Assembly: GCA_003283875.1 (NCBI GenBank)
Contig: QBXD01000007.1
Location: 1-47,917, forward strand
Direction of reading: 5' to 3'
DNA: 47,917 nucleotides
DNA from: SAR116 cluster bacterium AG-321-A13
Lineage (GTDB): Bacteria > Pseudomonadota > Alphaproteobacteria > Puniceispirillales > Marisalimonadaceae
Shown piece after piece: positions 1,002 through 16,790 of the stretch. The notes under the pieces were generated by a model. It saw only the letters and a program-made list of their open reading frames with translations, was not told where the DNA came from and did not search any database. Every line of letters begins with the position of its first letter. Positions within the stretch are counted from its first letter, which is position 1. Both the position numbers and the translations under genes were made by a program.

Positions 1002-1014
1002 TGTGAGGATTAAA

Positions 1015-1491
1015 TTGACTAACTTCTTAAAAAAAACACCTGAGTATTTACAATCAATTGCCGCTATATGGCTTATTCTTGTTGCCCTTACAATTTTTGC
1101 AGAAGTAACGTTTCGAAACTTAGGTATTTTTCTTGGTGCAGATCAAATTGTTCAAAATTCTGTACCTGCGATAGTTTTTTTACAAGTACCATTCGCTATC
1201 GCATCTGGAGCAATGTTGAGAACAACGCTTATTTATGATTTTTTTAAAAGTAGAGGCAAAAAAGTAATAAATATAATTTCTTATTTAATAGGAATAATGT
1301 TGTTCTTAGGTATAGCCGTTGGGGGTTGGACAGATATGATAAAAGGATGGGAAATCGGAGAGTATCAAGGTATAGGAGCAATTGAATTTCCAGTTTATCC
1401 TATAAGAACAGTAATAATTTTTTCTTCTATTATAGTTGTATTTATTTATTTATCTTTAATTTTCAAATCATTTTCATCAAAAAATAATTAA
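1015..1491 (+). CDS. dctQ: TRAP transporter small permease (DctQ family)
   Basis: This is the small membrane subunit of a tripartite ATP-independent periplasmic importer, which pairs with the large DctM subunit. Four hydrophobic segments are visible, and the stretch EVTFRNLGIFLGADQIVQNS between the first two is typical of the family. The frame could start at GTG 1003, but that codon has no Shine-Dalgarno. GAGG at 1005-1008 lies six bases before TTG 1015, giving a protein starting MTNFLKKTPEYLQS, so I chose 1015. About 158 residues is normal for the family. It is followed after 13 bases by the large permease and then by the binding protein, so it is the first gene of a three-gene operon. The substrate cannot be read from this subunit. 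Confidence 0.85.
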   Translation: MTNFLKKTPEYLQSIAAIWLILVALTIFAEVTFRNLGIFLGADQIVQNSVPAIVFLQVPFAIASGAMLRTTLIYDFFKSRGKKVINIISYLIGIMLFLGIAVGGWTDMIKGWEIGEYQGIGAIEFPVYPIRTVIIFSSIIVVFIYLSLIFKSFSSKNN

Positions 1492-1504: not shown

Positions 1505-2821
1505 ATGGGTATAGATCTAGACACATTAATGATTTTGACTCTCATTGGAATGTTATTAGCAATATTTTCTGGCGTTCACATTGCCCTTGCTCTTGGAGCA
1601 ACAGCAATGATTGGGACATATTTTATATTCGAAGATATGTACATGGCTGCAAGTCAAGTAGGTGGAGCAGCTTATGAACTAATTCGTGATCATATATTTA
1701 TGACAATTCCTTTGTTTGTTTTAATGGGAGACTTCCTATCCCGGAGTGGAGCTGCAGGAGATTTGTATACATTAATTAATAAAGGTCTGAAAGGTGTCCC
1801 AGGCAGATTAGGAGTTGCAACAGTAACTGGTAATGCTGCATTTGCTGCTGTAACCGGAACATCCATAGCGTCAGCAGCAGCTTTTTCTAGGATTGCTTGG
1901 CCTGAGATGAAAAAAGCAGGTTATGATCAAAAGCTTGCCGTAGGTTCTATAGCGGGAAGTGCATGTTTAGGGATGTTAATACCCCCGAGTGTTTTATTAA
2001 TTGTTTGGGGAATTATAACTGAAGACTCAATAGGTAAACTTTTTGTTGCAGGCGTAATTCCTGGTATTATTTTATCTCTTATGTTTGCTTTTTATAACTT
2101 TTCGAAGGCTGTTATTGATCCAAAACTTGCTCCAGAACCTGACAGTATAGGCGATACAACTTCACTCACAACTAATCAGATTATTTCTGGTATGTCTATA
2201 GTTGGTCTCATTTTTGTTGTTCTTGGAGGCATATGGGGAGGTATATTTACACCAACAGAGGCTGCAGGAATGGGTGCACTTGCAAGCTTTTGCATTGCAA
2301 TTTTCAAGGGTATGAGGTGGAAAGGTATTGTAGAGTCGGTAATAGATGCTGGAAAAACTTCTGCTCCTATAATGATACTTTTAATTACCGCCGGAATGTA
2401 TTCAAGATTTCTATCATTGTCAGATATAGATTCAGTTATAGTTGATGCAATGACATCAGCGGGTCTAAATAGCATTATGATTTTGGTTATGATGGTTGTC
2501 ATTTGGTTAATATTAGGTATGTTGCTTGACTCCATCTCGATAATTTTACTGACTGTGCCTCTATTTATTTTACTTGCAGGTGACATGAATCCTTATGCTT
2601 TTGCAATTTTTGGAATTTTAGCAATAGAAGCAGGTTTACTTACACCACCTTTTGGTCTTATAGTTTACACAGTTAAGGGCGTGTTAGCCGCTGGCGGGGA
2701 TAATGTATCACTCGGATCAATATTTAAGGGTTCAATACCCTATTGGATAATGATGCTTATCGTAATGTTGTTAGTTGCATTTTTCCCAGCATTGGCTAGT
2801 TGGCCTACACAATTTGTTTAG
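1505..2821 (+). CDS. dctM: TRAP transporter large permease (DctM family)
   Basis: This is the ion-coupled transport subunit of the TRAP system, which moves the substrate delivered by the binding protein across the inner membrane. At 438 residues it has the usual family length and is hydrophobic throughout, with about a dozen membrane segments. Recognisable family stretches include FMTIPLFVLMGDFLSRSG near residue 70, the serine/alanine-rich loop TGTSIASAAAFSRIAWPEM, SACLGMLIPPSVLLIVWG, and IFTPTEAAGMGALASF in the second half. The near-symmetric repeat of such loops matches the inverted-repeat architecture of ion transporters. It lies between the small permease and the binding-protein gene, all on one strand. 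Confidence 0.95.
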   Translation: MGIDLDTLMILTLIGMLLAIFSGVHIALALGATAMIGTYFIFEDMYMAASQVGGAAYELIRDHIFMTIPLFVLMGDFLSRSGAAGDLYTLINKGLKGVPGRLGVATVTGNAAFAAVTGTSIASAAAFSRIAWPEMKKAGYDQKLAVGSIAGSACLGMLIPPSVLLIVWGIITEDSIGKLFVAGVIPGIILSLMFAFYNFSKAVIDPKLAPEPDSIGDTTSLTTNQIISGMSIVGLIFVVLGGIWGGIFTPTEAAGMGALASFCIAIFKGMRWKGIVESVIDAGKTSAPIMILLITAGMYSRFLSLSDIDSVIVDAMTSAGLNSIMILVMMVVIWLILGMLLDSISIILLTVPLFILLAGDMNPYAFAIFGILAIEAGLLTPPFGLIVYTVKGVLAAGGDNVSLGSIFKGSIPYWIMMLIVMLLVAFFPALASWPTQFV

Positions 2822-2858
2822 TAAAAACGTGGGGTTAAATACTAAACTTAACACTACC

Positions 2859-2866: not shown

Positions 2867-2871
2867 AAAAC

Positions 2872-3972
2872 ATGATTAGGTATTTTAAAAAAGCTATACC
2901 ATTAAGCATACTAGCTTCTGGTATAATTGCATCTGCATCTATTGCAGATACATTTACATTAAGGGTTGGATCAGGTCATCCATCAAAGCCAACAGCTTAT
3001 GTTACTAATATGGAAAAAGTATTAGTTCCTAATATCAAAAAAAGAGTAGCTGCTGAAACAAGTCACAAAGTTAGAATTATCGAAGCATATGCAGGTAAGA
3101 TTGCTAAAGTTCATGAAACACTAGAAGCCGTTGAAAAAGGTCTTCTAGACATTGGTTCCTATTGTGTTTGTTTTGAAACTGCAAAACTATTACCTTGGAA
3201 CTTTGATTATTTTGTTCCTTTTACTACAACCAATTTAGAAACTAATTGGGCAGTTAAGCATAAAATACTTAAGCAATTTCCGCAGCTAACAAAAATGCTT
3301 GAAGATAAATACAATCAAAAATTCATAGCGATGCAAGGTTTTGATGACTACGGTCTTGGTACAGTAAAGCAATGGAATAAAGCAAGTGAACTTAAAGGTG
3401 TAAAAGTTATAGCTGCTGGACCAAACTTACCTTGGGTATCATTGTTTGGGTCTATTCCAGTTACATCCACACTTCCGACCATGTATAATGACTTGGCGAC
3501 TGGGGTTGCTAAAGGTGTTATTATTTTTCCATCAGCTCATGCTGGAGGATTTAAGTTTTATGAGCAAGCGCCTTATTGGAAAGTTATTGGTTTTGGAGCA
3601 ATGGCTCAAACAATCACAACTATTAACTTAGATACAATGAAAAAATTACCACCTGAAATAGTTAAGATAATTATGGAAGAGGCAGTAAATTATGAGAAAG
3701 CTGCTGTAAAAGATGGTCAACAAAGATACCAAAAAGGTCTTACAGATTTGGTTAAGCTAGGAAAGAAAAAAGGTATCAATGATGCAGTGACTTATTTACC
3801 TGTTTCTGAGCAAAAGATTTGGGCAGAAACTATTAAAGATTGGCCTAATTCAAGAGCAAAAGATATTACAAAAGATTATGGTATGGATGGTGCCGCTCTA
3901 ATGAATGCTTACATGGATGAAATGGAAAAAACAGGCCATAAATTTCCAGTACGTTTTAAAATTGGCGGATAA
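2872..3972 (+). CDS. dctP: TRAP transporter substrate-binding protein (DctP family)
   Basis: This is the periplasmic receptor that captures the solute for the DctQM permease. A Sec signal peptide is visible: a basic start, a hydrophobic core around residues 9-22, and a likely cleavage after SASIA. The mature protein begins TFTLRVGSGHPSKPTAYV, matching the first strand of DctP folds. Length (366) is typical. In most family members the stretch after ELKG reads K-(I/V)-R, and that Arg clamps the substrate carboxylate. Here the sequence is ELKGVKVIAAGPN with no Arg. A Cys-x-Cys in GSYCVCFET is also unusual. Both hint at an atypical ligand. It is the last gene of the operon, directly followed by a terminator. 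Confidence 0.93.
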   Translation: MIRYFKKAIPLSILASGIIASASIADTFTLRVGSGHPSKPTAYVTNMEKVLVPNIKKRVAAETSHKVRIIEAYAGKIAKVHETLEAVEKGLLDIGSYCVCFETAKLLPWNFDYFVPFTTTNLETNWAVKHKILKQFPQLTKMLEDKYNQKFIAMQGFDDYGLGTVKQWNKASELKGVKVIAAGPNLPWVSLFGSIPVTSTLPTMYNDLATGVAKGVIIFPSAHAGGFKFYEQAPYWKVIGFGAMAQTITTINLDTMKKLPPEIVKIIMEEAVNYEKAAVKDGQQRYQKGLTDLVKLGKKKGINDAVTYLPVSEQKIWAETIKDWPNSRAKDITKDYGMDGAALMNAYMDEMEKTGHKFPVRFKIGG

Positions 3973-4269: not shown

Positions 4270-5022
4270 TCAGTCCAGTATTCCTACAACCCTAACAAAA
4301 CCTGCTGATCCATTTTTAATTTTAAATGGAAATGCTGATATTGTAAAACCAAAATCTGGCAATTTATCTAAATTGGCTAATTTTTCAATATGTGAATAAC
4401 CCGTAACCATTCCAGCTCTATGGCCTTCCCAAATAAGTGATGCGTCTTTGGTTTCCTTATATTTTTCTGCGGTATGAACAAACGGCGCATCCCAACTCCA
4501 AGCATCAGTCCCAGTAACCCTTACTCCTTGATCAAGTAAAAAAAGTGTTGCTTCTTTTCCAATACCACAACCTTTCGATAAGAAATCATCTTGTCCGTAT
4601 CTTTCTCCTGCAGAAGTGTTAACTAAAACTATATCAAGTGGTTTTAAGGTATATTTAATTTTTTTTAATTCCGCACTTAAATCGTTTTTTGTTAAAACAT
4701 AACCGTCATCATAAGAGCGCAAATCTAACTTAACACCATCACTAAAACACCATTCTAATGGTATTTCATCTATTGTAACGGCTCTTTCTCCATTATTCAT
4801 GGTGGAATGATAATGATATGGGGCATCCATATGTGTGCCGTTATGTGTGCTAACAGTTATTGTTTCCATAGCCCAACCTTCGCCTCCCGGCAAATCTGAT
4901 TGTTTTAATCCAGGAAAAAAGCTTGTCATTTCCTCAGCTGTTTCTTGATGATGATGATATTTAACCTTCGGTAACATAAAGTCAGGATCAGATTTTATTC
5001 CCTGTTGCAAACTTACTGACAA
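4270..5022 (-). CDS. cyclase family hydrolase (kynurenine formamidase-like), start disrupted by A10 tract
   Basis: This is a metal-dependent hydrolase of the cyclase family (PF04199), whose members open amide, formamide or lactone-type bonds. The signature metal site HNGTHMDAPYHYH is complete, and the C-terminal ISAFPFKIKNGSAGFVRVVG is typical. The frame as given can only start at TTG 5020-5022 (MSVSLQQGIK). Family members normally begin with an IDLS strand, and in-frame codons just upstream encode exactly FIDLS, but an in-frame TGA at 5041-5043 blocks them. An ATG with a good Shine-Dalgarno (GAGGG) at 5042-5044 runs into ten A residues and is out of frame by one. Nine A residues would restore MKKKFIDLSVSLQQG. 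Last gene of the minus-strand operon with YciI-like, cupin and dehydrogenase genes. Confidence 0.87.
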   Translation of the reverse strand: MSVSLQQGIKSDPDFMLPKVKYHHHQETAEEMTSFFPGLKQSDLPGGEGWAMETITVSTHNGTHMDAPYHYHSTMNNGERAVTIDEIPLEWCFSDGVKLDLRSYDDGYVLTKNDLSAELKKIKYTLKPLDIVLVNTSAGERYGQDDFLSKGCGIGKEATLFLLDQGVRVTGTDAWSWDAPFVHTAEKYKETKDASLIWEGHRAGMVTGYSHIEKLANLDKLPDFGFTISAFPFKIKNGSAGFVRVVGILD

Positions 5023-5031
5023 ATCTATAAA

Positions 5032-5041: not shown

Positions 5042-5051
5042 CATCACACCC

Positions 5052-5351
5052 TCAATTTAAATTATTAGACAAATTATCTACTCTCTTATTAAAAGGTGAA
5101 ATTGTAATTTCATCCCATACGCCAGCTTTATATATTGGATCATTAATCTGAAAATCTTTTATTTCTTGAATAGTTTCAGCTTCTACCATAAAAAAAGAAC
5201 CATTCATTATATCGCCTGCTTCATTAGTCAATGGACCAGATATAAGTGTTTTAATTGGATTCGTTGATAAATACTTTCTGTGTTCGTCAATTACATCCAT
5301 TCTTTTTTTAAAAGAATTTGGCTTATCTTTACATAATATAACCCAGATCAT
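5052..5351 (-). CDS. YciI-like family protein
   Basis: A 99-residue protein of the YciI fold (PF03795), a ferredoxin-like alpha/beta dimer found in many catabolic operons, mostly of unknown role. One characterised relative acts as a muconolactone-isomerase-like or dehydrochlorinating enzyme. The sequence starts MIWVILCKDKPNSFKKR, has the conserved EHRKYL helix with the His often regarded as catalytic, the GPL loop, and ends with the DPIYKAGVWDEITISPFNKR strand typical of the family. It is transcribed between the cupin (19 bases upstream) and the cyclase-family gene (7 bases to its likely ATG), so it probably works in the same pathway. Confidence 0.85.
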   Translation of the reverse strand: MIWVILCKDKPNSFKKRMDVIDEHRKYLSTNPIKTLISGPLTNEAGDIMNGSFFMVEAETIQEIKDFQINDPIYKAGVWDEITISPFNKRVDNLSNNLN

Positions 5352-5370
5352 TTCAAAACCTTAATGCTAT

Positions 5371-5934
5371 TTAGTTATTGGTAGTCTCAAATTGTTTTAT
5401 TCTTTCATATGCCAAATCTGTAAATTCAGCCTTGGGTGCATTTCCAGCAATAACTACAAGCAAGAGATGATCCTTATCATCTTCACCTTCTGTTACATTC
5501 ATAAAACGCCTAGAACAACCAGGTGGGAATGATATTACATCACATGGGCCTAGATCTACGTGCTCAAGTTCATCACCTTCATTCCACTCACATCTCCATT
5601 TGCCTGTTATTGGCATAAAAGTTTCATTAGTGTCATGATTATGCATCAAAGGACCCTTTCCAGGTTTACATCTACAAAAACCAAGATTAAAGCCTTCAGA
5701 TATATTTATAGCAGGCATCTGTGCATTATCATTACCAAGCGGTGATACGTGCTTGCTATCACCCTTTGGTGGCTCAAATCCAATAATATTAATTAACTCT
5801 CTAGTGCATTCTGGAAGTTTACTATCTGGCAAACCTAATTTAGAACCACTCTGATTGGAAAAAAATGCAATTCTTTTATCCATATCTTCTCTTGATAATG
5901 TTTTTATCTCTGGAAGTTTTGTTTCTGTTTTCAT
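5371..5934 (-). CDS. cupin domain protein
   Basis: A 187-residue protein with one cupin barrel in its second half. Cupin motif 1 is visible as GPLMHNHDTNETFMPITGKW, with the two His and the Glu that bind the metal. Motif 2 is DVISFPPGCSRRFMNV, where the usual final His is replaced by Phe, so the metal site would have three ligands. The first 75 residues have no assignable domain. GGGGATT precedes the ATG. It lies in an operon with a 3-HIBADH-like dehydrogenase, a YciI-like protein and a cyclase-family hydrolase, so a small-molecule catabolic enzyme such as a dioxygenase or isomerase is likely. The reaction cannot be named. Confidence 0.83.
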   Translation of the reverse strand: MKTETKLPEIKTLSREDMDKRIAFFSNQSGSKLGLPDSKLPECTRELINIIGFEPPKGDSKHVSPLGNDNAQMPAINISEGFNLGFCRCKPGKGPLMHNHDTNETFMPITGKWRCEWNEGDELEHVDLGPCDVISFPPGCSRRFMNVTEGEDDKDHLLLVVIAGNAPKAEFTDLAYERIKQFETTNN

Positions 5935-5943
5935 AATAATCCC

Positions 5944-6819
5944 CTATTTATTATTAATTTTTAGTTGTTCAAAAATTGCAGCAGTATCATATGTTATTGG
6001 AATATTATCTTTAGATTGATTATACAAAGCAGCAGCAGCGTCAAAAGTTGGAGAAATCATGCTATTATGTTTTAAAAAATTACTGATAACATCAATATCT
6101 TTTAAAAATATTCTCATAGAAGCAGTTGCAGGTTCATAATCTTCACTTATCATCAATGGCATCCTTTTATCCAGCATTACAGATGTTGCAGCTCCTTCAT
6201 TAAGTACTTCATAAATCTTTTGGCTATCTAGCCCCACCTTTTGGCCTAATAATAAAGCTTCTGCAGTTACTGTATTATGAACTGTTACTAATAGATTAGC
6301 TAAAATTTTAAACTTAATGCCGTTACCAAATTCACCAACAAAGATATTTTTCCTAGCAAAACTGTCAAAAATATCTTTACAGTCATCAATTATCTTTTCA
6401 CTTCCACTTGACATTACAACAAGATCTTTTGTTTTGGCTTGTGCTCCGGTACCACTCACAGGCGCATCTATAAAGAAAATATTTAGTTTTTCTAATTTAT
6501 TTTTGGCGTCTAATTTGTCTTCAAGAGATATTGTATTCATGTCAATAATGACTTTTGGATCTGTAAAATAATTACAATTTTCTATTTCATTTATAACATT
6601 ATGAAAAATAGGAACAGTTGGCAAACTTAATATAATCACATTGCTTTTTTCAAGTAAATCATTGATATTATTTAATAATATACCTCCATATAATGTAAAA
6701 GAACTCGAGTTTTTTTTATCTGGATCAATACCAAAAACTTTGAAATTATTTTCAAGTAAATGCTTTGCATATTCACCGCCCATAGCGCCAAGGCCTATTG
6801 AACCTATAATCTTTGACAA
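5944..6819 (-). CDS. 3-hydroxyisobutyrate dehydrogenase-like NAD(P) oxidoreductase
   Basis: A complete beta-hydroxyacid dehydrogenase of 291 residues. The Rossmann motif IGSIGLGAMGGEYAKHL lies at the N-terminus, with an Asp (FGIDPD) after the second strand that favours NAD. The substrate-binding stretch DAPVSGTGAQAKTKD sits near residue 115, and the catalytic block GNGIKFKILANLLVTVHN carries the active-site Lys. The start is TTG at 6817-6819, preceded by a purine-rich GGGGGAA ribosome binding site. No ATG upstream would preserve the family start. It is the first gene of a minus-strand operon (dehydrogenase, cupin, YciI, cyclase) and resembles the truncated gene at the window start. Possible substrates include 3-hydroxyisobutyrate, tartronate semialdehyde or a pathway-specific hydroxyacid. 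Confidence 0.92.
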   Translation of the reverse strand: MSKIIGSIGLGAMGGEYAKHLLENNFKVFGIDPDKKNSSSFTLYGGILLNNINDLLEKSNVIILSLPTVPIFHNVINEIENCNYFTDPKVIIDMNTISLEDKLDAKNKLEKLNIFFIDAPVSGTGAQAKTKDLVVMSSGSEKIIDDCKDIFDSFARKNIFVGEFGNGIKFKILANLLVTVHNTVTAEALLLGQKVGLDSQKIYEVLNEGAATSVMLDKRMPLMISEDYEPATASMRIFLKDIDVISNFLKHNSMISPTFDAAAALYNQSKDNIPITYDTAAIFEQLKINNK

Positions 6820-6962: not shown

Positions 6963-8060
6963 ATGGAAATTGGTTTTTTTACTATGCCTATTCATCCGAT
7001 AGATAAAGACTATAAAAAAACTTTATCAGAAGATCGTGAAGCTTTTTTGTTAGCAGATAGAATAGGTTTTTCAGAAGCTTATTGTGGAGAGCATGTTACA
7101 GATTCAGCCGAAAATATTACCTCTAGTGCTCTTTTTATAGCATCTTTGGCAAGTGATACTAAAAATATACGTCTAGGAACTGGCACTGTAAATATGCCTA
7201 ACTCTCACCCTGCAGCTATTGCAGGTCAAATTGCAATGTTAGATCATATGCTTGATGGTCGTTTAAATTTTGGAATAAGTCCAGGCGGTCTTGCTTCAGA
7301 TGCTGAAGTGTTTGGAAACCTTGATAGAGACAGAAATGAGATGTTTGTTGAATGTATTGATATGGTTCTAGAAATTTGGAAAAGAGAAGCCCCTTATAAT
7401 ATCAAGGGAAAGTATTGGAATGTTTCTACTGAAAGAACTCAAATGACTGAAATTGGTCAAGGGATAATGCAAAAGCCTCTACAAAAACCATATCCTCCAA
7501 TTATTTGTACTGTTGTTGCTCCTTTTTCAAAGGGTCTAGTCGCCGCTGCTGCCCGTGGATGGCAACCTATATCTGCTAATTTCTTACTCCCCAAATGGGC
7601 TAAAACTCATTGGCCTAGCTATGTACAAGGCTGTGAACAAAGTGGATTAGAAGTAAATTCAAAAAATTGGAGAGTCGCAAAGTCAATTTTTGTTTGTGAA
7701 GATAGAAATAAAGCTAAAGAATATGCCCTAGGAAATGGCAGTCCTTATGTTTTTTATTATAAACAATTACTAACAAAAATGTTGAAACATGGAAGAGCTA
7801 ATTTATTTAAAGAAGATCAGGACATGTTTGATAGTGATTTAAAATTAGAGGATATATGTAACAAATTAATTTTATACGGTTCTGCTGATGAAGTTGCTGA
7901 CAAAATACTAGAATTTAGAGAAGAGGTTGGTGATTTTGGAACTTTGTTATATGCTGGTCATGATTGGGCAGATGTTGATTTAGCTAAAAAATCTATGGAG
8001 TTAATGGCTGAAAAAGTAATGCCTAAAATCAATGATAATATTAAGATTGCTGCTGAGTAG
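6963..8060 (+). CDS. LLM class flavin-dependent oxidoreductase
   Basis: A 365-residue luciferase-like monooxygenase, a TIM barrel using reduced FMN and oxygen to oxidise or cleave small organic molecules. Typical segments are MEIGFFTMPIHP, the EAYCGEHV helix, LASDTKNIRLGTGTVNMP around residues 75-85, and the LDGRLNFGISPGG turn that contacts flavin phosphate. The set resembles the limonene/pyrimidine (RutA) branch, but substrate assignment is not safe. AAGGAG at 6949-6954 fixes the ATG. It opens a plus-strand run with an alpha/beta hydrolase, VOC protein, cyclase-family hydrolase and FAD monooxygenase spaced 7-25 bases apart, most likely one operon. A separate flavin reductase, usually needed to supply reduced flavin, is not seen in the window. 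Confidence 0.92.
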   Translation: MEIGFFTMPIHPIDKDYKKTLSEDREAFLLADRIGFSEAYCGEHVTDSAENITSSALFIASLASDTKNIRLGTGTVNMPNSHPAAIAGQIAMLDHMLDGRLNFGISPGGLASDAEVFGNLDRDRNEMFVECIDMVLEIWKREAPYNIKGKYWNVSTERTQMTEIGQGIMQKPLQKPYPPIICTVVAPFSKGLVAAAARGWQPISANFLLPKWAKTHWPSYVQGCEQSGLEVNSKNWRVAKSIFVCEDRNKAKEYALGNGSPYVFYYKQLLTKMLKHGRANLFKEDQDMFDSDLKLEDICNKLILYGSADEVADKILEFREEVGDFGTLLYAGHDWADVDLAKKSMELMAEKVMPKINDNIKIAAE

Positions 8061-8068
8061 GATATATT

Positions 8069-8863
8069 ATGCCGAATATTTCTATAGAGAATGGTAATTT
8101 TTTAAATGTTAAAATAGATGGCGATAAAAATTTACCAAAAGTAATCCTATCGAATTCTTTAGGAGCTGATACACGCATGTGGGATCTTCAGGTTGAGGCA
8201 TTAAAGAATAAATTTTGTGTAATACGTTATGATAAAAGAGGTCATGGTAAAAGTAGCCCTGTTGAAGGACCATATTCTTTTGAAATGCTTGAAAGTGATG
8301 TAATTACAATTTTAGATGAACTTGAAATTGAGAAAGCTCATTTTGTAGGACTTTCAATTGGTGGAATGACATCGTTAGGCTTAGCTTTAAAACAACAAAA
8401 TAGATTTAATAAAATTATTTGCTGTGCGGCAAGAGCTGACATGCCACCTTCAATGAAAGAAACTTGGGATCAAAGAATTAGCGTAGTTAAAGACAAAGGT
8501 ACTAGTGGAGTAGTTGATGGCTCCATTGAGAGATGGTACAGCGAAGATTTTAATAATAATTCTGCTAACGATGAGATGATCAATATGTCTAAAAATATGA
8601 TAAGTAACACTTCTACAAATGGTTACGTTGGTTGTTGTGAGGCTATAAAAACACTTGATTATTTGAAAGACTTATCAACTATAAATAAAGAAATGTTATA
8701 TATATCAGGTGAGAATGATATGGGAGCTCCAGCTATGGCTATGGAAGAAATGTCTCATCTTACTCCTAACAGTAAATATATTTGCATTCCTGGCGCAGCT
8801 CATATTCTCAATATAGAAGCATCAGATTTAGTAAATGAAGCTATTCTCAATTTTTTGAATTAA
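8069..8863 (+). CDS. alpha/beta hydrolase, 3-oxoadipate enol-lactonase (PcaD)-like
   Basis: A 264-residue alpha/beta-fold hydrolase with all three catalytic residues in the expected order: Ser96 in GLSIGG, Asp217 in SGENDMGAP, and His245 in PGAAHILN. The opening VILSNSLGADTRMWDLQVEAL and YDKRGHGKSS resemble the enol-lactonase PcaD, which opens a lactone formed after aromatic ring cleavage. Deformylases and C-C hydrolases of other ring-degradation routes share this fold. It lies eight bases after the luciferase-like monooxygenase and before a VOC protein, so it probably hydrolyses a ring-opened or lactone intermediate. No cap-domain peculiarity stands out. Confidence 0.9.
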   Translation: MPNISIENGNFLNVKIDGDKNLPKVILSNSLGADTRMWDLQVEALKNKFCVIRYDKRGHGKSSPVEGPYSFEMLESDVITILDELEIEKAHFVGLSIGGMTSLGLALKQQNRFNKIICCAARADMPPSMKETWDQRISVVKDKGTSGVVDGSIERWYSEDFNNNSANDEMINMSKNMISNTSTNGYVGCCEAIKTLDYLKDLSTINKEMLYISGENDMGAPAMAMEEMSHLTPNSKYICIPGAAHILNIEASDLVNEAILNFLN

Positions 8864-8885
8864 ATAAATAATAAAGGAAAATATT

Positions 8886-9302
8886 ATGGCCATTAAAACA
8901 TTTGAACACGTACTTATATTAGCAAATGACGTTGAAAAAACTAAAGATTTCTATGTAAATATTTTGGGGTTAGAAGTTGGATACAGACCAGACTTTCCTT
9001 TTAAAGGATATTGGCTTTATCTAAAAGAAAATAAAAAAGCAGCTTGTATCCACTTAGCAATGAGAAAACAGGATACTGGTCAAGACTATTACATAGGTAA
9101 AAAAGATGATGTTAAGTCTGGTTCTGGTGCAATTGATCATGTTGCTTTTAATGCTGACGACATTGAAGGAATGAAATCTAAATTAGACAAAATTTCTATG
9201 GAATATACACATAGAAAAGTTCCTGGGTTTCCACTTGAACAGCTGTTTATAGATGATCCTGATGGTGTTAAAGTTGAGTTAAATTACGCCACATCTGATT
9301 AA
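8886..9302 (+). CDS. VOC family (glyoxalase/dioxygenase superfamily) protein
   Basis: A 138-residue vicinal-oxygen-chelate protein. It has the paired beta-alpha-beta pattern: FEHVLILANDVEKTKDFYVNILGLEVG for the first module and GAIDHVAFNADDIEGMKSKL for the second. Possible metal ligands are His at FEHV, His in DHVAF and Glu near the end (KVELNY), an H-H-E set. VOC enzymes include glyoxalases, epimerases and small extradiol dioxygenases. Being in the middle of an oxidative catabolic operon makes a ring-cleaving or isomerising role attractive, but this is inference. AAAGGA at the upstream edge provides the ribosome binding site. Confidence 0.87.
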   Translation: MAIKTFEHVLILANDVEKTKDFYVNILGLEVGYRPDFPFKGYWLYLKENKKAACIHLAMRKQDTGQDYYIGKKDDVKSGSGAIDHVAFNADDIEGMKSKLDKISMEYTHRKVPGFPLEQLFIDDPDGVKVELNYATSD

Positions 9303-9325
9303 AAAATTATTTAAGGGAGAATTAA

Positions 9326-10294
9326 ATGCCTCATAAGTATGATGAAAAAATGTTTGATATTAAACATTTAAGAAAAACAGCTGAAAAACTTAAGAATTGG
9401 GGACGCTGGGGGCCAGATGATGAAATTGGAACTTTAAACTTTATAACTCCTGAAAAAGTTGTGGACGCCAGTAAGCTTATAAAAAAGGGAAAGCGTTTTA
9501 GTTTAGGATTAAATTTTGATAGACATGGTCCTCAAAAAGGAAGCTGGGGTAACAGGTTTAATCCAATTCACTTAATGCTTGCCACAGGTACAGATGCAGT
9601 TGCAGGTAGATTTGATGATTTTGGATTGAGATATGCTGACGATATGATCTCTTTACCACTTCAATGTGCAACTCAATGGGATGCATTGGCTCATATTTTT
9701 TATGATGATTATATGTGGAATGGATATGATGCAAAATTAGTCGACAGTGATGGTGCCCAAAAGAATGGCATAGAAAAAGTTCGAGCTGAGATGGCTGGAA
9801 GAGGTGTATTATTAGATGTTGCAAGATGGGCAGGAGTAGATTTTTTTGAAGATGGAATTGCTATTACTTCAGACGATTTGGATGAGTGTGCCAAATCTCA
9901 AAATGTTGAAATAAAACAAGGTGACTTTGTTATTGTGAGAACTGGTCAGATGGAACAAAGATTAGATTGTGGTGAATGGGGAGGATATGCTGGAGGCGAT
10001 GCTCCAGGATTAGCCTTTGACACTGCAGAATGGATTTATGATAAAGAAATAGCAGCCATTTGTACTGACACATGGGGCTGTGAAGTTAGACCAAATGAGA
10101 CTAAAGATGCCCAGCAACCATGGCATTGGGTTGTAATTCCTATGATTGGTATAACTATGGGTGAAATATTTTATTTAAGAGATTTAGCTGCAGATTGTAG
10201 TAATGATAAAGTCTTTGAATTCTTTTTCTGTGCGCCTCCTCTGCCAATCACTAAAGCTGTTGGATCACCAATAAACCCTATGGCAATAAAATAA
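9326..10294 (+). CDS. cyclase family hydrolase, long form
   Basis: A 322-residue member of the cyclase/kynurenine-formamidase family in its longer subtype. The metal motif reads QCATQWDALAHIFYDD (Gln113 to His123), the variant common in this subtype, where the first His of the HGTHxDxxxH signature is replaced while Asp119 and His123 remain. The N-terminal block WGRWGPDDEIGTLNFITPEKV is a hallmark of the long form. Bacterial relatives are usually annotated only as cyclase family, with some acting on amides or formylated compounds. It is spaced 23 bases after the VOC gene and seven bases before the FAD monooxygenase. The shorter paralog at 4270-5022 keeps the full HGTHxD motif, so the two probably act on different substrates. 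Confidence 0.9.
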   Translation: MPHKYDEKMFDIKHLRKTAEKLKNWGRWGPDDEIGTLNFITPEKVVDASKLIKKGKRFSLGLNFDRHGPQKGSWGNRFNPIHLMLATGTDAVAGRFDDFGLRYADDMISLPLQCATQWDALAHIFYDDYMWNGYDAKLVDSDGAQKNGIEKVRAEMAGRGVLLDVARWAGVDFFEDGIAITSDDLDECAKSQNVEIKQGDFVIVRTGQMEQRLDCGEWGGYAGGDAPGLAFDTAEWIYDKEIAAICTDTWGCEVRPNETKDAQQPWHWVVIPMIGITMGEIFYLRDLAADCSNDKVFEFFFCAPPLPITKAVGSPINPMAIK

Positions 10295-10301
10295 ACCAAG
10301 C

Positions 10302-11510
10302 ATGACGCATTCTGCTACAATAATTGGCGGCTCTATGGCTGGATTGTTTGCTGGTAATGCTTTACGTAAAAAAGGATGGGACATTTCTATTCATGAAAAG
10401 GTCCCTGTTCCATTATCAGGGCGAGGAGCTGGAATAGCTACATATGACGAGTTAGCTGACTTAGTTTTTAAATCTACTGGGAATAATAATGTTTTGGGTA
10501 CTAGTGCAAAGTCAAGAATTTCGTTGGACCAAAAAGGTAAAATTATAGCTAGTTACGACTACCCACAAGTCTATACAAGTTGGCAATATTTATTTTCTAT
10601 ACTCAGAGAAAAAATTGATAATAAAAATTATTTTATGGGTGACGACTGTACTGAGATTCATCACGGAAAAGAAAAAGTAACTGCAGTTTTTAATAATAAA
10701 AAAGAAAAACAATCTGATTTAATAATTATAGCTAATGGAATTAGATCAGAACTTAGAAGTTATGTAGACAATAAAGCCTCTCCTCAGTACGCAGGGTACG
10801 TAGGATGGCGGGGCGTAGTATATGAAGATCAACTGTCTCAGGAATCTTTAGAGACGCTTTCTAATTATTTTATAGTTGTTTTACCTTATAACCAACAAAT
10901 TGCTGCTTATCCGATTGCAGGTGAAGGTAAGGATCCTTTTAAAAAAGGAAATAGAAGAATTAATTGGATTTGGTACAAACCCGCTAATACAAAAGATTTA
11001 AAATCTCTATTGTTAGGTAACTCTGGCCAACAATTCGTGGATAGTATACCTCCTAATGAAATACGTGATCAAATTGTCAAAGATTTATTTAAAGAAGCAG
11101 AAGATAAGCTTCCACCTCAATTGATTGAATTAGTATTAAAAACCTCACAACCTCTTATTCAGCCTATTTTTGATCTTGAAAGTGATAAGATGCTCAATAA
11201 AAGAGTGATTACTATTGGTGACGCCGCATTTACGGCAAGGCCCCATGTAGGAATGGGTGTTACAAAAGCAGCTTTAGATGCGTCTAGTTTATCAGAATAT
11301 CTAAAAGGTGATGGTTATTTAGAAGAATTAACTGAATGGGAAGCATCTAGAGTTAAAAGTGGGAAGTTTCTTGTAAATAGAAGTAGGTTGTTAGGCAGAT
11401 ATCTCTCAGAACCTGAAAAAAAAGAAACACTTATAATGCCTGATGTTACAGATGTACTAAAAGATACTGCCATCAGCTTGAAAGACATCAAATCTGATTC
11501 AAGAAATTAA
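10302..11510 (+). CDS. FAD-dependent monooxygenase, 2,6-dihydroxypyridine hydroxylase-like
   Basis: A 402-residue class A flavoprotein monooxygenase. The FAD-binding GxGxxG equivalent is ATIIGGSMAGLFAGNALRKKG, followed by the subtype stretch PLSGRGAGIATYDEL. The second FAD motif is VITIGDAAFTARPHVGMGVTKAAL near residue 305, with the conserved Gly-Asp. This pattern is closest to 2,6-dihydroxypyridine 3-monooxygenase-type enzymes rather than salicylate hydroxylase, because the GDAAF(T/V)ARPH form is seen there. The family hydroxylates activated aromatic or heteroaromatic rings with NAD(P)H and oxygen. It ends the plus-strand operon and faces a molybdenum hydroxylase, the two enzyme types that act in turn in several N-heterocycle pathways. 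The substrate is not proven. Confidence 0.88.
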   Translation: MTHSATIIGGSMAGLFAGNALRKKGWDISIHEKVPVPLSGRGAGIATYDELADLVFKSTGNNNVLGTSAKSRISLDQKGKIIASYDYPQVYTSWQYLFSILREKIDNKNYFMGDDCTEIHHGKEKVTAVFNNKKEKQSDLIIIANGIRSELRSYVDNKASPQYAGYVGWRGVVYEDQLSQESLETLSNYFIVVLPYNQQIAAYPIAGEGKDPFKKGNRRINWIWYKPANTKDLKSLLLGNSGQQFVDSIPPNEIRDQIVKDLFKEAEDKLPPQLIELVLKTSQPLIQPIFDLESDKMLNKRVITIGDAAFTARPHVGMGVTKAALDASSLSEYLKGDGYLEELTEWEASRVKSGKFLVNRSRLLGRYLSEPEKKETLIMPDVTDVLKDTAISLKDIKSDSRN

Positions 11511-11535
11511 ATATAATTAATTAATTTAAAAAAAA

Positions 11536-11565
11536 TAATTAAAGTATTGTTTTAATTAAATTTTT
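11536..11565. terminator. AT-only hairpin between convergent genes, weak terminator candidate
   Basis: TAATTAAA and TTTAATTA, separated by seven bases, form an AT-only stem flanked by A and T runs. It sits at the junction of the FAD monooxygenase and the converging molybdenum-hydroxylase operon, overlapping the latter's stop. Its stability would be low, so this is tentative. Confidence 0.3.
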
Positions 11566-13949
11566 CCAAGTGCCCTTAATATTTTTTCTGGGGTAATTGG
11601 CTGCGAGACAACCTCTTTCCCTAGCTGGTTCAAAGCATTATTAATTGCATTCATTATAACTGCTGGCGCACCACCTGTTCCTGCTTCACCAGCTCCTTTA
11701 GCTCCAATAATGCTCCTTCCAGAATTTGTGGTAACATGATCTACAATAATATCAGGCATTTCATATGCCATAGGCACTAAATAATCAGCCATAGTTGCAT
11801 TTTGCATATTACCCTGGTCATCATAGACACACTCTTCGAAAAGAGCACCACCTATTCCTTGAATGACACCTCCTCTAATTTGTTCTTCAACTAATTTTGG
11901 ATTAATTTGTGTTCCACAGTCTTCAACAGCCCAGAATTTATCTATTTTTATAATGCCAGTGTCCTGGTGAATAGAAACTTTACAACCCATAGCACTATTA
12001 GTAAAAACAAAAGGGATTCCCTCAATTAGAAAACTGGCAGTGGCCAACAATTCAGGGTTAGTTCCCTTAGGAAGTTCATGGCCTCTATAATATACTGTCT
12101 CAGCTAATTGTTGTAGAGTTATACCCTCACCTCCATTTTTTCTAATTACAGTATTGTTTTCAACGTCCAATGAATTTTTATCAGTTTGCATAATTGCAGC
12201 TGCAATATCTAATATATTGTCTTTAAGAGTTCTTGCTGCCTTTAGTACTGCCTCACCGCCAATTCCTGCTCCTCTTGATGCCCATGTACCACCACCATAA
12301 GGAGTTGCATCAGTATCACCTAAAGTGACCCTTACAGAGTCCATGGAAACACCTAGTTGGTCCGCAGCTATTTGTTTCATAATAGCCTCGGTACCTTGCC
12401 CTTGTTCTGTAATAGATGAAGACAGATGAATTGCACCAGAACCTTCTAGTCTTATTGATGCTCCGTCTTGAGAAGATATATGAGCGCCTCCAACACCATA
12501 AAATAAAGGACTAGGGTTAGTAACTTCACACATACTAATTACCCCATAACCAGAAAGTACATTTTTGTCTAAGTTTGCTATCTTTTCTTTTTCTATTTCC
12601 TGTATATTCATCATAGTTAATAATTTATCCATCGAAGCTTGATGTGATAAATCTTCTAAAGGTACTCCAGATGGAGTTTTATTTGGATAAGCATTATCAG
12701 GAATAAAATTCTTCTTTCTTATTTCAGAAAGACCAATGTCAATTTTATTTGCAGCCTTGTCTATCAAGGCTTCTGTAATAGCGACAGCAATAGGGTGACC
12801 AACTGCTCTATATTGACACATTGGCGTTTTATTTTGAAAAACAACAGTCCCCACTGCTTTATAATTTGGAATAACATAAGGGGCACCAGATAAATTCAAT
12901 ACTTGATTTGTCTCAATGGCAGACGTTCTTGGATACATACTAAATGGACCTATACCACTCAAGTCATTTATTTCCATCGCTAATATTTTGCCTTCTTTAT
13001 CAATTCCTAACTTTCCACTTATTTTATGACAACGTGCATGAATATCAGTTGTAAAACTCTCTAATCTATCTGCAATAAACTTTATTGGACGTCCTAACTT
13101 TTTAGAAATTGCAGCCACAGCCATTTCATCAGGATATACATGAACTTTAATACCAAAAGACCCACCAACATCTCTACTTACTATTCTGACTAAACCTTCA
13201 TTTATTTCTAAATGTTTAGCTATAATATGCTGCATCATGTGTGGAGCTTGACCATTATGATAGATTGTTATCTTACCTTCTGCTTTATTCCAGTCAGCCA
13301 CAATACCTCTAGATTCTAGCGTAACACCAGTATGTCTAGCAAAATCAAGTGTTGTTTCTACTACTGCATGAGATGTTTCAAAAGCCTGATTTACGTCACC
13401 TTGATTAACAGTCCTTGTCCAAAAAAGATTACTTCCCAACTCGGGATGAATAATTACAGCATTATCATCTAAAGCAGTTTCCATATCTACTTGAGCATCT
13501 TTTTCTTCCCAATCAACTTCAATTAGTTCCAATGCGTCTTCAGCTTGTGCCCTATTATTTGCTATTACAACAGCAATAGGTTCTCCCTGCCATCTTACAA
13601 TTTTCTCCGCTAACGGTGTCTGTTCAGGAGATCTCATTTCTCCTAAATGACCTAATGTGCCTACCCAAGGTGTACAATATTCATCTATTTCTTTAGATGT
13701 ATAAACATCAAATACACCAAGTGATGTTTTGGCCTCTTCGACGTTTATTGACTTAATTTCAGCGTGAGCAAAGGGCGATCTTAAAAATGCAACGTGTAGC
13801 ATTCTCGGCAAAACTAAATCATCAACAAACTGTCCACCACCTTCCAAGTGTTTTTTTGCATTTTCTCTTGGTAAACTTCTTCCTATATAGGAATTTGGTC
13901 TGTCCATAGATCCTAACTTTGGATTTTGATTTACTTTAATATCGTCCAT
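11556..13949 (-). CDS. molybdenum hydroxylase large subunit (CoxL/XDH family molybdopterin-binding)
   Basis: The 797-residue catalytic subunit of a xanthine-oxidase-family enzyme, which hydroxylates a ring carbon or aldehyde with water through a molybdenum-cytosine/pterin cofactor. Seen in order are the aldehyde-oxidase domain start SYIGRSLPRENAKKHLEGGGQFVDDL, the Mo-binding GGSFGIKVHVYPDE, the active-site loop MCQYRAVGHP around residue 378, GQGTEAIMKQ, and the catalytic Glu in GAKGAGEAGTGG near residue 753. True form I CO dehydrogenase needs AYRCSFR in the loop, which is absent, so this is not CO dehydrogenase. The genes run FAD subunit, 2Fe-2S subunit, large subunit on one strand. Substrates in the family include purines, nicotinate and other N-heterocycles, and aldehydes. 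Confidence 0.93.
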   Translation of the reverse strand: MDDIKVNQNPKLGSMDRPNSYIGRSLPRENAKKHLEGGGQFVDDLVLPRMLHVAFLRSPFAHAEIKSINVEEAKTSLGVFDVYTSKEIDEYCTPWVGTLGHLGEMRSPEQTPLAEKIVRWQGEPIAVVIANNRAQAEDALELIEVDWEEKDAQVDMETALDDNAVIIHPELGSNLFWTRTVNQGDVNQAFETSHAVVETTLDFARHTGVTLESRGIVADWNKAEGKITIYHNGQAPHMMQHIIAKHLEINEGLVRIVSRDVGGSFGIKVHVYPDEMAVAAISKKLGRPIKFIADRLESFTTDIHARCHKISGKLGIDKEGKILAMEINDLSGIGPFSMYPRTSAIETNQVLNLSGAPYVIPNYKAVGTVVFQNKTPMCQYRAVGHPIAVAITEALIDKAANKIDIGLSEIRKKNFIPDNAYPNKTPSGVPLEDLSHQASMDKLLTMMNIQEIEKEKIANLDKNVLSGYGVISMCEVTNPSPLFYGVGGAHISSQDGASIRLEGSGAIHLSSSITEQGQGTEAIMKQIAADQLGVSMDSVRVTLGDTDATPYGGGTWASRGAGIGGEAVLKAARTLKDNILDIAAAIMQTDKNSLDVENNTVIRKNGGEGITLQQLAETVYYRGHELPKGTNPELLATASFLIEGIPFVFTNSAMGCKVSIHQDTGIIKIDKFWAVEDCGTQINPKLVEEQIRGGVIQGIGGALFEECVYDDQGNMQNATMADYLVPMAYEMPDIIVDHVTTNSGRSIIGAKGAGEAGTGGAPAVIMNAINNALNQLGKEVVSQPITPEKILRALGKI

Positions 13950-13959
13950 AATTTACACC

Positions 13960-14436
13960 TTAATTAATTTCGTTAATAGATTCTTCAATTGCATCTACAA
14001 TTGACTGGTAACCAGTACATCTACAATAATTCCCAGAGATTTCTGATCTTATTTCATCTCTACTTAACTTTTTTTTAGAAGATATTATTTCTTTAGTTGT
14101 CATAAGCATTCCTGGAGAACAAAAACCACACTGAAAAGCATTGTGTTTTAAAAAATTATTTTTAACTTTTTGCATAACTTCGTCATCAAAACCCTCTACA
14201 GTAGTTATAGACGAGCCATTGGCTTGTGATGCAAGGACAAGACATGACCTGACTGCCACACCATCCATTTCAATCGTACATGCCCCACATGCACCCTGCT
14301 CACATCCTAAATGTGTTCCAGTTAAACCTTGAGACCTTAAATAATCAGCTAAATGTTGTCTTGTTGGAACGGTTACATCGTCAAAATTCTCTCCATTTAC
14401 AGAAAAAGATATGTTTACTGAATTTTTAGCCGACAT
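13960..14436 (-). CDS. molybdenum hydroxylase 2Fe-2S subunit (CoxS-like)
   Basis: The 158-residue small electron-transfer subunit. The N-terminal plant-type ferredoxin domain has its cluster Cys in GCEQGACGACTIEMDG, with a further Cys in RSCLVLA. The C-terminal helical domain has the second cluster pair CGFCSPGML and CRCTGYQ. All eight cluster cysteines are visible. Electrons from the molybdenum centre pass through these clusters to FAD in the neighbouring subunit. The ATG starts directly after the FAD-subunit stop, and the large subunit starts ten bases after this gene's stop, so all three are probably co-translated. Confidence 0.95.
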   Translation of the reverse strand: MSAKNSVNISFSVNGENFDDVTVPTRQHLADYLRSQGLTGTHLGCEQGACGACTIEMDGVAVRSCLVLASQANGSSITTVEGFDDEVMQKVKNNFLKHNAFQCGFCSPGMLMTTKEIISSKKKLSRDEIRSEISGNYCRCTGYQSIVDAIEESINEIN

Positions 14437-15294
14437 TTATCTCTCCAATTTATTTAAAATCTTATTAATAAGTATTGTTGCCAAATGTAACTTCATTTCT
14501 GAACTGCTATTCAAGTCACCTGCAAAATCTATTTCAGATGCCAAAGATTTTTTTAATTTTTCATAATCATATCCGTTATCTATTACTAATCTTGCCGTAT
14601 TTTGTGCAACATTAGGTTTATCACCTGTTGCAAAGTAAACGAGATCAAGATTATTGATTTTAGATTGATCAAGTTCTACTTTTGCCATTAAACCTGCCAT
14701 AGCATAATCACCATGACGACGACAGACTTCATCAAAAATTAGATGTTGATTATGACTTAAAAAAGGATAACGAATAGCTGTAAGAATTTCATCTGACTTT
14801 AAGTCAGTTTCAAAAAGTCCAAGGTAAAAATCTTTTGCGTTGACAATTCTTTGACCTGATAATCCTGATAGTACTATTTCTGCATCCATTGCGACGGCAA
14901 ATGCTGGCAGTTCAGCTGCAGGGTCACCATAGGCTATGCTACCACCATGAGTACCCTTATTTCTTATAGCTGCATGAGCAACCATTTTTAAAATATCAAC
15001 TAAACACGGGTATTTTTCACGAACTAGATCGTTATTCATTACATCTGAATGTGTTGCTAAGGCTCCAATATTTATGAAATCACCTTCAATTTTAATTTCG
15101 TTTAAATTATTAATTTTAGAAATATCAATTAAACAACTTGGACTAGAAAGTCTCATATTTAAAGCTGGGAGAAGTGACTGTCCACCAGCAAGTATGACTG
15201 CCTCATCATCTTCAGACTTGTATTTTATAGCATCTTCAATATTTTGTGCTTCAAAATAAGAAAAATCTGGTGCCTTCATTTCTATTACCCCCAC
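14437..15294 (-). CDS. molybdenum hydroxylase FAD-binding subunit (CoxM-like)
   Basis: The 285-residue FAD subunit of the three-part hydroxylase. The FAD motif VILAGGQSLLPALNMRL is at residues 33-50, the second flavin motif is AAIRNKGTHGGSIAYGDPAAELP near residue 110, and the C-terminal CO-dehydrogenase flavoprotein domain is present (FATGDKPNVAQNTARLVI). The protein passes electrons from the iron-sulfur subunit to an acceptor. It is the first gene of the operon. The frame begins MGVIEMKAPDFSYF, and the Met at residue 6 (MKAPDFSYF) is an equally good start. Confidence 0.93.
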   Translation of the reverse strand: MGVIEMKAPDFSYFEAQNIEDAIKYKSEDDEAVILAGGQSLLPALNMRLSSPSCLIDISKINNLNEIKIEGDFINIGALATHSDVMNNDLVREKYPCLVDILKMVAHAAIRNKGTHGGSIAYGDPAAELPAFAVAMDAEIVLSGLSGQRIVNAKDFYLGLFETDLKSDEILTAIRYPFLSHNQHLIFDEVCRRHGDYAMAGLMAKVELDQSKINNLDLVYFATGDKPNVAQNTARLVIDNGYDYEKLKKSLASEIDFAGDLNSSSEMKLHLATILINKILNKLER

Positions 15295-15449
15295 TAGAAA
15301 ACAATATGTAAATATTTAATCATTAATCATTAATGGTATCAATAATTATTAAATCATATTTAATGATTTTACATATTTTAATTTATCATTTCAAATTAAC
15401 ACTTAATGTTTTATTGTTTGATTGTTCAATGAATTTCCGGGGGTATAAA

Positions 15450-15899
15450 ATGAGTGATAATGTAGTTCATATGAAATTAGACGGGTCTTCAAAAAGCCAT
15501 TCCAGGGCTGACATAATAGCAAGAGATGTTGAAAGTGTCATTGACGAACCTATTGCCAGAGGTGGCACTAACTTAGGCTTATCTCCAACTGAAACTCTTG
15601 TATCATCTTTACTGGGTTGTACAAACGTTATTACCCACAGAATAATGGACAAATTGGGTTTTACGATTAATAGCTTAGATATAAAATCTAAGACTCTTTT
15701 TAATAAAGACGGTGCTAGTTTGGTACAAGAAGTTGATATACCATTTCCTGAAATCACTTTGGATATAGATATATCAACAGATGCTTCAGAAAATGAATTA
15801 ATTGAAGTAAAAAAACAATTAGCTATGTACTGCCCTATTGGAAAAGTTATTAGAAATAGTGGTACAGTTATTAATGAAAATTGGAATAAAATTAACTAG
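15450..15899 (+). CDS. OsmC family protein
   Basis: A 149-residue OsmC-fold protein. Both reactive cysteines of the family are present: Cys57 in SSLLGCTNV and Cys128 in AMYCPIGKVI, the pair that reduces organic hydroperoxides in OsmC/Ohr enzymes. The open frame extends back to 15333, but those codons encode a random-looking hydrophobic stretch. The ATG at 15450 has a G-rich ribosome binding site (GGGGG at 15439-15443) and starts MSDNVVHMKLDG, so I chose it. It lies next to the deacetylase gene on the same strand and is divergent from the molybdenum hydroxylase, so it may protect against peroxide made by flavin enzymes. YhfA-like members have other, unknown roles. Confidence 0.87.
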   Translation: MSDNVVHMKLDGSSKSHSRADIIARDVESVIDEPIARGGTNLGLSPTETLVSSLLGCTNVITHRIMDKLGFTINSLDIKSKTLFNKDGASLVQEVDIPFPEITLDIDISTDASENELIEVKKQLAMYCPIGKVIRNSGTVINENWNKIN

Positions 15900-15908
15900 A
15901 GTAAGTTA

Positions 15909-16790
15909 ATGAACAGACGAGATAGATTACATCACCAACCTATAATAAACAGACCTAAATTATACTTAAAAAATAATAAAAAAATAATTTTGTGGGTTAT
16001 AGTAAATCTTGAAGTGTGGGATCCAGATTTACCACAACCTAGAAATATATTACCTCCTCCTATGAATGTCCCAATGTTACCCGACTTGCCTAATTGGTCA
16101 TGGCATGAATATGGAATGAGAGTTGGCTTTTGGAGAATGTTTAAAGCTCTTAAGGATAGAGGCATCCCTTCAACTTTAGCTTTAAATGCAACTGTAGTAG
16201 ATCATTATCCCGAAACGGTTGAAGCAGCAATGAAGGAAAATTGGGAACCTATGGGTCATGGATATATTCAGAGGCCAATGCACAAGGTCGAAAATCAATT
16301 TGTAGACATAAAGTCAGCTATTAAAAAAATTGAGGGCTTTACTAAGCAAGTCGTTATTGGCTGGGAAAGTCCAGGACTAACTGAAACTAATGATACATTA
16401 GATATCTTATCTGATAATGGTATTAAATATACAGCAAATTGGCCTGTAGATGACTTGCCACAAGACTTAAAGGTTAAAAGTGGTAAGAGGATGATAACAC
16501 TACCCTATCCAATTGAAATTAATGATGTGGTTATGACTTCTGTCCAGGTTCATAAATCTGATGAGATTTTTACAAGAGGAAAATTACAATTTGATAGACT
16601 GTATAAGGAAACAGAAGAAAATACTAAGATAATGGCTATAAGTGTTCATCCTTATCTAACAGGAGTTCCCCATAGAATTGGTTTTTTTGAGAAGTTATTA
16701 GATTACGTCTTAGAACATGATGATGTTGAAATAATGACAGGTAAAGATATTTACAATTGGTATACAGAGCAGATTCCAGAGAATTCTTAA
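15909..16790 (+). CDS. polysaccharide deacetylase family protein, PuuE-like
   Basis: A 293-residue NodB-fold protein of the group that contains PuuE, a cofactor-free allantoinase, rather than sugar deacetylases. The first motif is NLEVWDPDLP in place of the TFDDG metal site, the second motif is MGHGYIQRP, and the stretch MRVGFWRMFKALKDRGIPST is shared closely with the paralog at 40402-41325. It has no signal peptide, so it is cytoplasmic and probably acts on a small amide or imide ring, not on a polymer. It follows OsmC by nine bases. Its gene ends one base from the converging ydcF-like gene. Confidence 0.86.
   Translation: MNRRDRLHHQPIINRPKLYLKNNKKIILWVIVNLEVWDPDLPQPRNILPPPMNVPMLPDLPNWSWHEYGMRVGFWRMFKALKDRGIPSTLALNATVVDHYPETVEAAMKENWEPMGHGYIQRPMHKVENQFVDIKSAIKKIEGFTKQVVIGWESPGLTETNDTLDILSDNGIKYTANWPVDDLPQDLKVKSGKRMITLPYPIEINDVVMTSVQVHKSDEIFTRGKLQFDRLYKETEENTKIMAISVHPYLTGVPHRIGFFEKLLDYVLEHDDVEIMTGKDIYNWYTEQIPENS

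Follow-up and report, generated by a model that had tools for sequence, protein, structure and literature searches.

SAR116 bacteria are among the most abundant heterotroph groups of surface seawater, and which organisms consume marine N-heterocycles such as homarine, trigonelline, nicotinate and vitamin breakdown products is, to our knowledge, largely an open question. Does a gene cluster in a stretch of 47,917 nucleotides from the alphaproteobacterium SAR116 cluster bacterium AG-321-A13 (contig QBXD01000007.1; hereafter the window) serve such a use? An initial annotation of the window had described a block at positions 6963–16790 in which a luciferase-like (LLM) flavin monooxygenase and a class A FAD monooxygenase are combined with a three-subunit molybdenum (Mo) hydroxylase, and had read it as a possibly new route of N-heterocycle breakdown. 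Our analysis supported this interpretation in part. It is fairly likely, we infer, that the locus is an accessory island for the catabolism of a small N-heterocycle, probably a carboxylated one.

The order of genes from an importer to a PuuE-like hydrolase recurred in approximately 20 SAR116 loci from four genera, with protein identities of 51–100%, and the conserved order is therefore far beyond chance. In the most distant of these loci, identity ranged from 51% for the FAD monooxygenase to 91–92% for a long cyclase of family PF04199, which showed the same 91–92% across genera in most SAR116 loci. Some of the loci compared are truncated by contig ends; all parts were found together in every SAR116 locus that contained the FAD monooxygenase and was long enough to judge. 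Conserved synteny, which the initial annotation had proposed as its own test, was thus confirmed. The FAD monooxygenase and the long cyclase were each matched in 23 of 58 genomes of the family. Both were found in 22 genomes and neither in 34, so that they were present or absent jointly in 56 of the 58 (Fisher p = 9e-14, a value that overstates independence, the genomes being related to one another and in many cases incomplete), and in the two discordant genomes the marker matches lie close to contig starts. An alignment scan of the genome collection for the FAD monooxygenase, which consisted of two peptide patterns that more divergent relatives would escape, gave matches only in SAR116 or unclassified alphaproteobacterial or proteobacterial genomes, to which all the near-identical named loci also belong. 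The island is patchily distributed, in part of the SAR116 population.

All named genes of the block, comprising a five-gene plus-strand run that faces the Mo-hydroxylase genes together with OsmC and PuuE-like genes beyond, were intact and lay where the initial annotation had placed them, and their families were confirmed with Pfam and NCBIfam. The left boundary at 6963 had been drawn too short. The conserved unit consists of approximately 17 genes, starting at 1003 with genes for a tripartite ATP-independent periplasmic (TRAP) importer and ending with the PuuE-like gene at 16790, and it adds to the block dctQMP (1003–3972, plus strand) and a four-gene minus-strand run (4270–6819). Intergenic gaps inside each run of the 6963–16790 block are 0–23 bp, and the plus-strand run and the Mo-hydroxylase run are convergent, with 45 bp from stop to stop. 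The order is dctQMP, cyclase–YciI–cupin–dehydrogenase, LLM–hydrolase–VOC–cyclase–FAD monooxygenase, moLSM and osmC–puuE, followed by ycdF and phoB. The genes of the unit are as follows.

1003..1491, plus strand: dctQ, TRAP small permease (PF04290; synteny in SAR116 loci)
1505..2821, plus strand: dctM, TRAP large permease (TIGR00786, 277.9 bits, cut-off 268.45; synteny)
2872..3972, plus strand: dctP, TRAP solute-binding protein (PF03480; relatives of 39–44% identity in clusters of family f104)
4270..5022, minus strand: short PF04199 cyclase/hydrolase, isatin hydrolase-like (PDB 5NNA; motif HNGTHMDAPYH intact)
5052..5351, minus strand: YciI-like protein (PF03795)
5371..5934, minus strand: cupin-like protein (sub-threshold PF07883; HxH(x)3E motif at 98–104 by alignment; structure model of low confidence, with a predicted local distance difference test score (pLDDT) of 56 and no informative match)
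5944..6819, minus strand: beta-hydroxyacid dehydrogenase, HIBADH/threonate dehydrogenase-like (PF03446 and PF14833; under every equivalog cut-off)
6963..8060, plus strand: LLM flavin monooxygenase (PF00296; PDB 4UWM, diketocamphane monooxygenase)
8069..8863, plus strand: alpha/beta hydrolase, PcaD/RutD-like (TIGR02427, 240.8 bits, cut-off 255.85; GLSIGG nucleophile)
8886..9302, plus strand: VOC protein (glyoxalase/VOC, PF00903; candidate metal ligands)
9326..10294, plus strand: long PF04199 cyclase (PDB 5IBZ, uncharacterised; more strongly conserved than the other genes of the set)
10302..11510, plus strand: class A FAD monooxygenase, 2,6-dihydroxypyridine hydroxylase type (NF005566; PDB 2VOU)
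11556..13949, minus strand: moL, Mo-hydroxylase large subunit (loop QYRAVGHP, catalytic Glu755)
13960..14436, minus strand: moS, Mo-hydroxylase 2x[2Fe-2S] subunit (PF00111 and PF01799; cysteine motifs)
14437..15294, minus strand: moM, Mo-hydroxylase FAD subunit (PF00941 and PF03450)
15333..15899, plus strand: OsmC-like protein (PF02566; its true start is probably at approximately 15450, because relatives begin to align only there)
15909..16790, plus strand: PuuE-like cyclic amide/imide hydrolase (TIGR03212, 119.5 bits, cut-off 424.6; PDB PuuE 1Z7A/3CL6)

The FAD monooxygenase passed the cut-off of NF005566/PRK07236 (389 versus 333 bits), and its best solved relative by sequence was 2,6-dihydroxypyridine hydroxylase (DHPH, 2VOU; E = 3e-37). 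A Foldseek search with its structure model, which is of moderate confidence (pLDDT of 67.6), also placed DHPH at the top (E = 3e-27, with the next protein at 1e-22), in agreement with the original assignment. By cut-off and nearest structure, the protein is a predicted member of the DHPH-type subfamily. VOC proteins that are paired with related FAD monooxygenases have H8, H56, H85 and E131 in common in an alignment, and these residues are candidate metal ligands. The small gene that follows the FAD monooxygenase gene in Agrobacterium and Bosea does not encode a VOC protein (13–17% identity in an alignment), and the pairing is therefore not universal.

Among solved structures, the Mo large subunit was closest to quinoline 2-oxidoreductase (Qor, 1T3Q). 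As in Qor, the L, M and S subunits contain domains for the molybdenum cofactor, FAD and 2x[2Fe-2S] (Pfam), respectively, with the cysteine motifs present, and catalytic Glu755 lies within GAGEA in alignment with Qor and CO dehydrogenase. Two XdhC/CoxI chaperone proteins are encoded elsewhere in the host genome, and molybdenum cofactor genes are carried by SAR116 genomes (PMC8547437). The PuuE-like protein aligned with PuuE over residues 64–284, and in a profile search, which covered PDB structures, PuuE (5e-35) ranked above HpPgdA (1e-20). The short cyclase retains HxGTHxDxPxH. The names PcaD-like and PuuE-like in the initial annotation hold as family likenesses and no further: the alpha/beta hydrolase just misses the cut-off for PcaD, a 3-oxoadipate enol-lactonase, and the PuuE-like protein falls well below that for allantoinase. 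An allantoin or urate route was rejected on the latter score and on that of the FAD monooxygenase against HpxO (97.6, cut-off 500).

Parts of the island are also linked outside SAR116. In the alphaproteobacterial genus g270 (four genomes of 7.2–8.8 Mb), the genes for the Mo subunits, among them moL (55%), are divergent from those for LLM (62–64%) and a PuuE-like protein (50–53%); downstream in the sole annotated locus of this genus (L100) lie genes for an acyl-CoA-dehydrogenase-like protein and a flavin reductase. Loci of family f104 combine as many as three long cyclases in tandem (62–65%) with dctPQM, a cupin, moS/moM and a PuuE-like gene (49–52%), and moL is located elsewhere in those genomes; one of its loci (L105) also has an OsmC gene beside that for the Mo FAD subunit. 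In family f95, moMSL occurs together with VOC and FAD monooxygenase genes (37–39%). Plasmids of Burkholderia and Paraburkholderia carry the VOC–FAD monooxygenase pair and, some kilobases on, cytochrome c/2Fe-2S/Mo genes, with cytochrome c alone lying within the part covered of one stretch inspected, and Cupriavidus carries the pair alone. In locus L116, Mo genes come after pcaCHGBD-like genes. PuuE-like relatives of 49–53% identity adjoin Mo-hydroxylase genes in other lineages. Of the arguments from genomic context, the recurrence of the Mo and PuuE-like pair in three lineages weighs most. Three tandem long PF04199 cyclases, 62–65% identical to the single one of SAR116, are encoded in a 2.3-Mb alphaproteobacterium (L096, 8245–11466).

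SAR116 genomes with phoB and without the block were inspected at the corresponding site. In three loci (L142, L143 and L147), the site consists of LLM and alpha/beta hydrolase genes and then ycdF–phoB, with the rest of the block absent. Beside these genes lie a divergent flavin reductase gene and genes for a HisD-like dehydrogenase, a short-chain dehydrogenase/reductase (SDR) and a dehydratase of the IlvD type. L146 and L140 have kept the hydrolase gene beside that for the flavin reductase and also have a Mo-hydroxylase of two subunits. L140 further contains, at 7786–9217 and adjoining the alternative gene set, a relic of island replacement at this site: a PuuE-like gene in which two stop codons occur, an N-terminally truncated osmC and a duplicated ycdF tail. 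The segment VOC–cyclase–FAD monooxygenase–moLSM–osmC–puuE is replaceable, and LLM with the hydrolase is a separable module. The five-gene plus-strand run, the order of which was confirmed, is therefore not indivisible, because LLM and the hydrolase persist alone at the same site elsewhere in SAR116.

The nearest solved relative of the LLM protein was diketocamphane monooxygenase (4UWM), and its scores were under all LLM subfamily cut-offs. The block does not encode a reductase for this enzyme; a flavin reductase gene adjoins LLM relatives in other genomes, and two Flavin_Reduct proteins are encoded elsewhere in the host genome. A second LLM monooxygenase paralogue is also encoded there (G000:C58:1655–2734, 292 bits to the LLM profile). 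At the alternative site of L142 (13357–15437), the HisD-family dehydrogenase and the SDR are 64–67% and 49–53% identical, respectively, to proteins encoded next to long cyclases in Rhizobium leguminosarum and in f104; they could be extra parts of the pathway or a separate module, perhaps one for the use of sulfopropanediol.

Breakdown of an N-heterocycle is the best supported reading, because the nearest characterised relatives of the two diagnostic enzymes, the FAD monooxygenase and the Mo-hydroxylase, are DHPH and Qor and a PuuE-related imidase has a precedent in fungal nicotinate breakdown. The logic put forward in the initial annotation is likewise supported by the linkages of Mo-hydroxylase with PuuE-like genes and with FAD monooxygenase/VOC genes that recur in unrelated lineages; substrate class, order of steps and each reaction are predictions from homology. 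The TRAP system would import the compound, and the three-subunit Mo-hydroxylase would introduce a carbonyl oxygen at a carbon of the ring that adjoins nitrogen. The FAD monooxygenase and its VOC partner may perform further ring hydroxylation, after which the PuuE-like protein and/or the two PF04199 cyclases might open and de-amidate the resulting cyclic amide or imide. LLM, supplied with FMNH2 by a reductase whose gene lies elsewhere, and the PcaD-like hydrolase may process the product, which the HIBADH-like dehydrogenase would feed into central metabolism. A more specific proposal, which we put forward only tentatively, is that of a new marine pathway in part of SAR116 in which an N-heteroaromatic carboxylate, for example a pyridine carboxylate or betaine, would be readied by Mo-hydroxylation together with class A and luciferase-type flavin monooxygenases, and its ring would then be opened hydrolytically in the manner of an imidase.

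Several observations weigh against an N-heterocycle as substrate. Identity of the FAD monooxygenase to DHPH is only 26–28%, and the Mo-hydroxylase, LLM and PuuE-like proteins are far under every equivalog cut-off, so that their substrates could lie elsewhere. Among the genes of the block, none was identified as a ring-cleavage dioxygenase known from a pyridine route. LLM and the alpha/beta hydrolase can occur apart from the rest, and the island may therefore be composite. Such a locus would hold two or three unrelated catabolic modules side by side for different substrates, namely LLM with the hydrolase, VOC–cyclase–FAD monooxygenase–Mo–PuuE, and the minus-strand cyclase–cupin–dehydrogenase. 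This would account for LLM with the hydrolase, or the hydrolase alone, lying beside ycdF–phoB near flavin reductase, HisD-like and SDR genes, as well as for the replacement attested by the L140 relic. We nevertheless consider it rather unlikely, given that the parts are never split in SAR116 loci with the FAD monooxygenase that are long enough to judge and that LLM is linked independently to Mo-hydroxylase and PuuE-like genes in genus g270.

Less probable still is breakdown of a carbocyclic aromatic or terpene-like carboxylate, in which the Mo enzyme would be an aldehyde oxidoreductase and the FAD monooxygenase, VOC and PcaD-like proteins would open a carbon ring. The PcaD-like hydrolase, the kinship of LLM with diketocamphane monooxygenase and the position of Mo genes after pcaCHGBD-like genes in L116 are compatible with such a route, as is glyceraldehyde dehydrogenase as best NCBIfam match of all three Mo subunits, although under the cut-off. 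Without C–N bonds to cleave, however, the PuuE-like protein and the two PF04199 hydrolases would have no obvious task, and the best solved relative of the Mo enzyme is Qor and the best fold for the FAD monooxygenase is DHPH. CO dehydrogenase is reportedly a common feature of SAR116 (PMC8547437), and the large subunit can be aligned with CoxL over its full length, so that coxL annotations in SAR116 might suggest a form II CO-dehydrogenase-like energy locus. This is very improbable: in the large subunit, QYRAVGHP takes the place of the AYRCSFR loop of CO dehydrogenase, with Ala382 at the position of the Cu-binding Cys, and the TIGR02416 score is 433 against a cut-off of 991. The g270 orthologues all carry QYRAVGHP unchanged. 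This SAR116 CoxL-like gene should not be taken for one of aerobic CO dehydrogenase.

Other features of the window were noted in passing. Upstream of the TRAP genes, a partial second beta-hydroxyacid dehydrogenase gene (2–751) is cut by the contig start. An intradiol ring-cleavage dioxygenase (Dioxygenase_N and Dioxygenase_C) is encoded at 26723–27556, near glutathione S-transferase-like and quinone oxidoreductase-like genes. The region 38398–45418 encodes a TenA thiaminase II (TIGR04306 at cut-off), an amidase-signature protein, an ABC importer and a second PuuE-like hydrolase (40402–41325, 35% identical to the first), and is possibly a separate block for pyrimidine or thiamine breakdown. Promoter and terminator scans gave nothing meaningfully above shuffled sequences.

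As to novelty, the enzyme families are all known and it is their combination that is new. We found no matching gene set in the open-licence literature, with preprints outside its scope and description elsewhere possible, nor a gene set for homarine or trigonelline with which to compare; neither compound is supported or excluded as substrate. The main text of a SAR116 phylogenomics paper does not contain the terms aromatic, nicotin- or heterocycl- (PMC8547437). A strictly linked, patchy island with its own importer is a testable candidate for N-heterocycle use, and the FAD monooxygenase and long cyclase can serve as marker genes for metagenomes and metatranscriptomes.

As the initial annotation had stated, the set does not match any complete known pathway: the Mo-hydroxylase, LLM and PuuE-like protein have no fitting NCBIfam equivalog, and a pathway is named by none of the equivalog models. 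The routes of RutA, pyridine PyrA and tetramethylpyrazine TpdA open N-heteroaromatics with an LLM flavin monooxygenase and a hydrolase. SAR116 shares this pair of enzymes, a likeness by description, whereas its LLM protein is under the subfamily cut-offs and nearest to diketocamphane monooxygenase. The nicotine pathway of Paenarthrobacter (DHPH, 2VOU; Kdh, 7DQX) likewise has an NF005566-family FAD monooxygenase, a three-subunit Mo-hydroxylase and an alpha/beta hydrolase; it differs in that identity is 26–28%, the SAR116 Mo large subunit is nearer to Qor than to Kdh, and the other genes have no counterpart. Riboflavin/lumichrome catabolism (PMC12746152) likewise has, within a single cluster, a cupin, hydrolases and a Mo-hydroxylase that acts on an N-heterocycle, but its architecture is different, the SAR116 block being without cytochrome P450, Rieske and thiamine pyrophosphate-dependent decarboxylase proteins, and this route was rejected. 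A complete nicotinate nic/hxn pathway was also rejected, given that no NicX-type dioxygenase or old yellow enzyme (OYE) reductase was found among the annotated block genes, to which the search was confined. HxnV and HxnX belong to other FAD monooxygenase families than that of SAR116, which adds LLM, VOC, two PF04199 cyclases and a TRAP importer. It is nonetheless the logic of the hxn pathway that matches: in nicotinate catabolism of Aspergillus nidulans, the Mo-hydroxylase HxnS and the pyridine-acting FAD monooxygenases HxnX and HxnV precede the PuuE/HpPgdA-related cyclic imidase HxnM, in a route that also includes a dehydrogenase and an amidase (PMC9304392).

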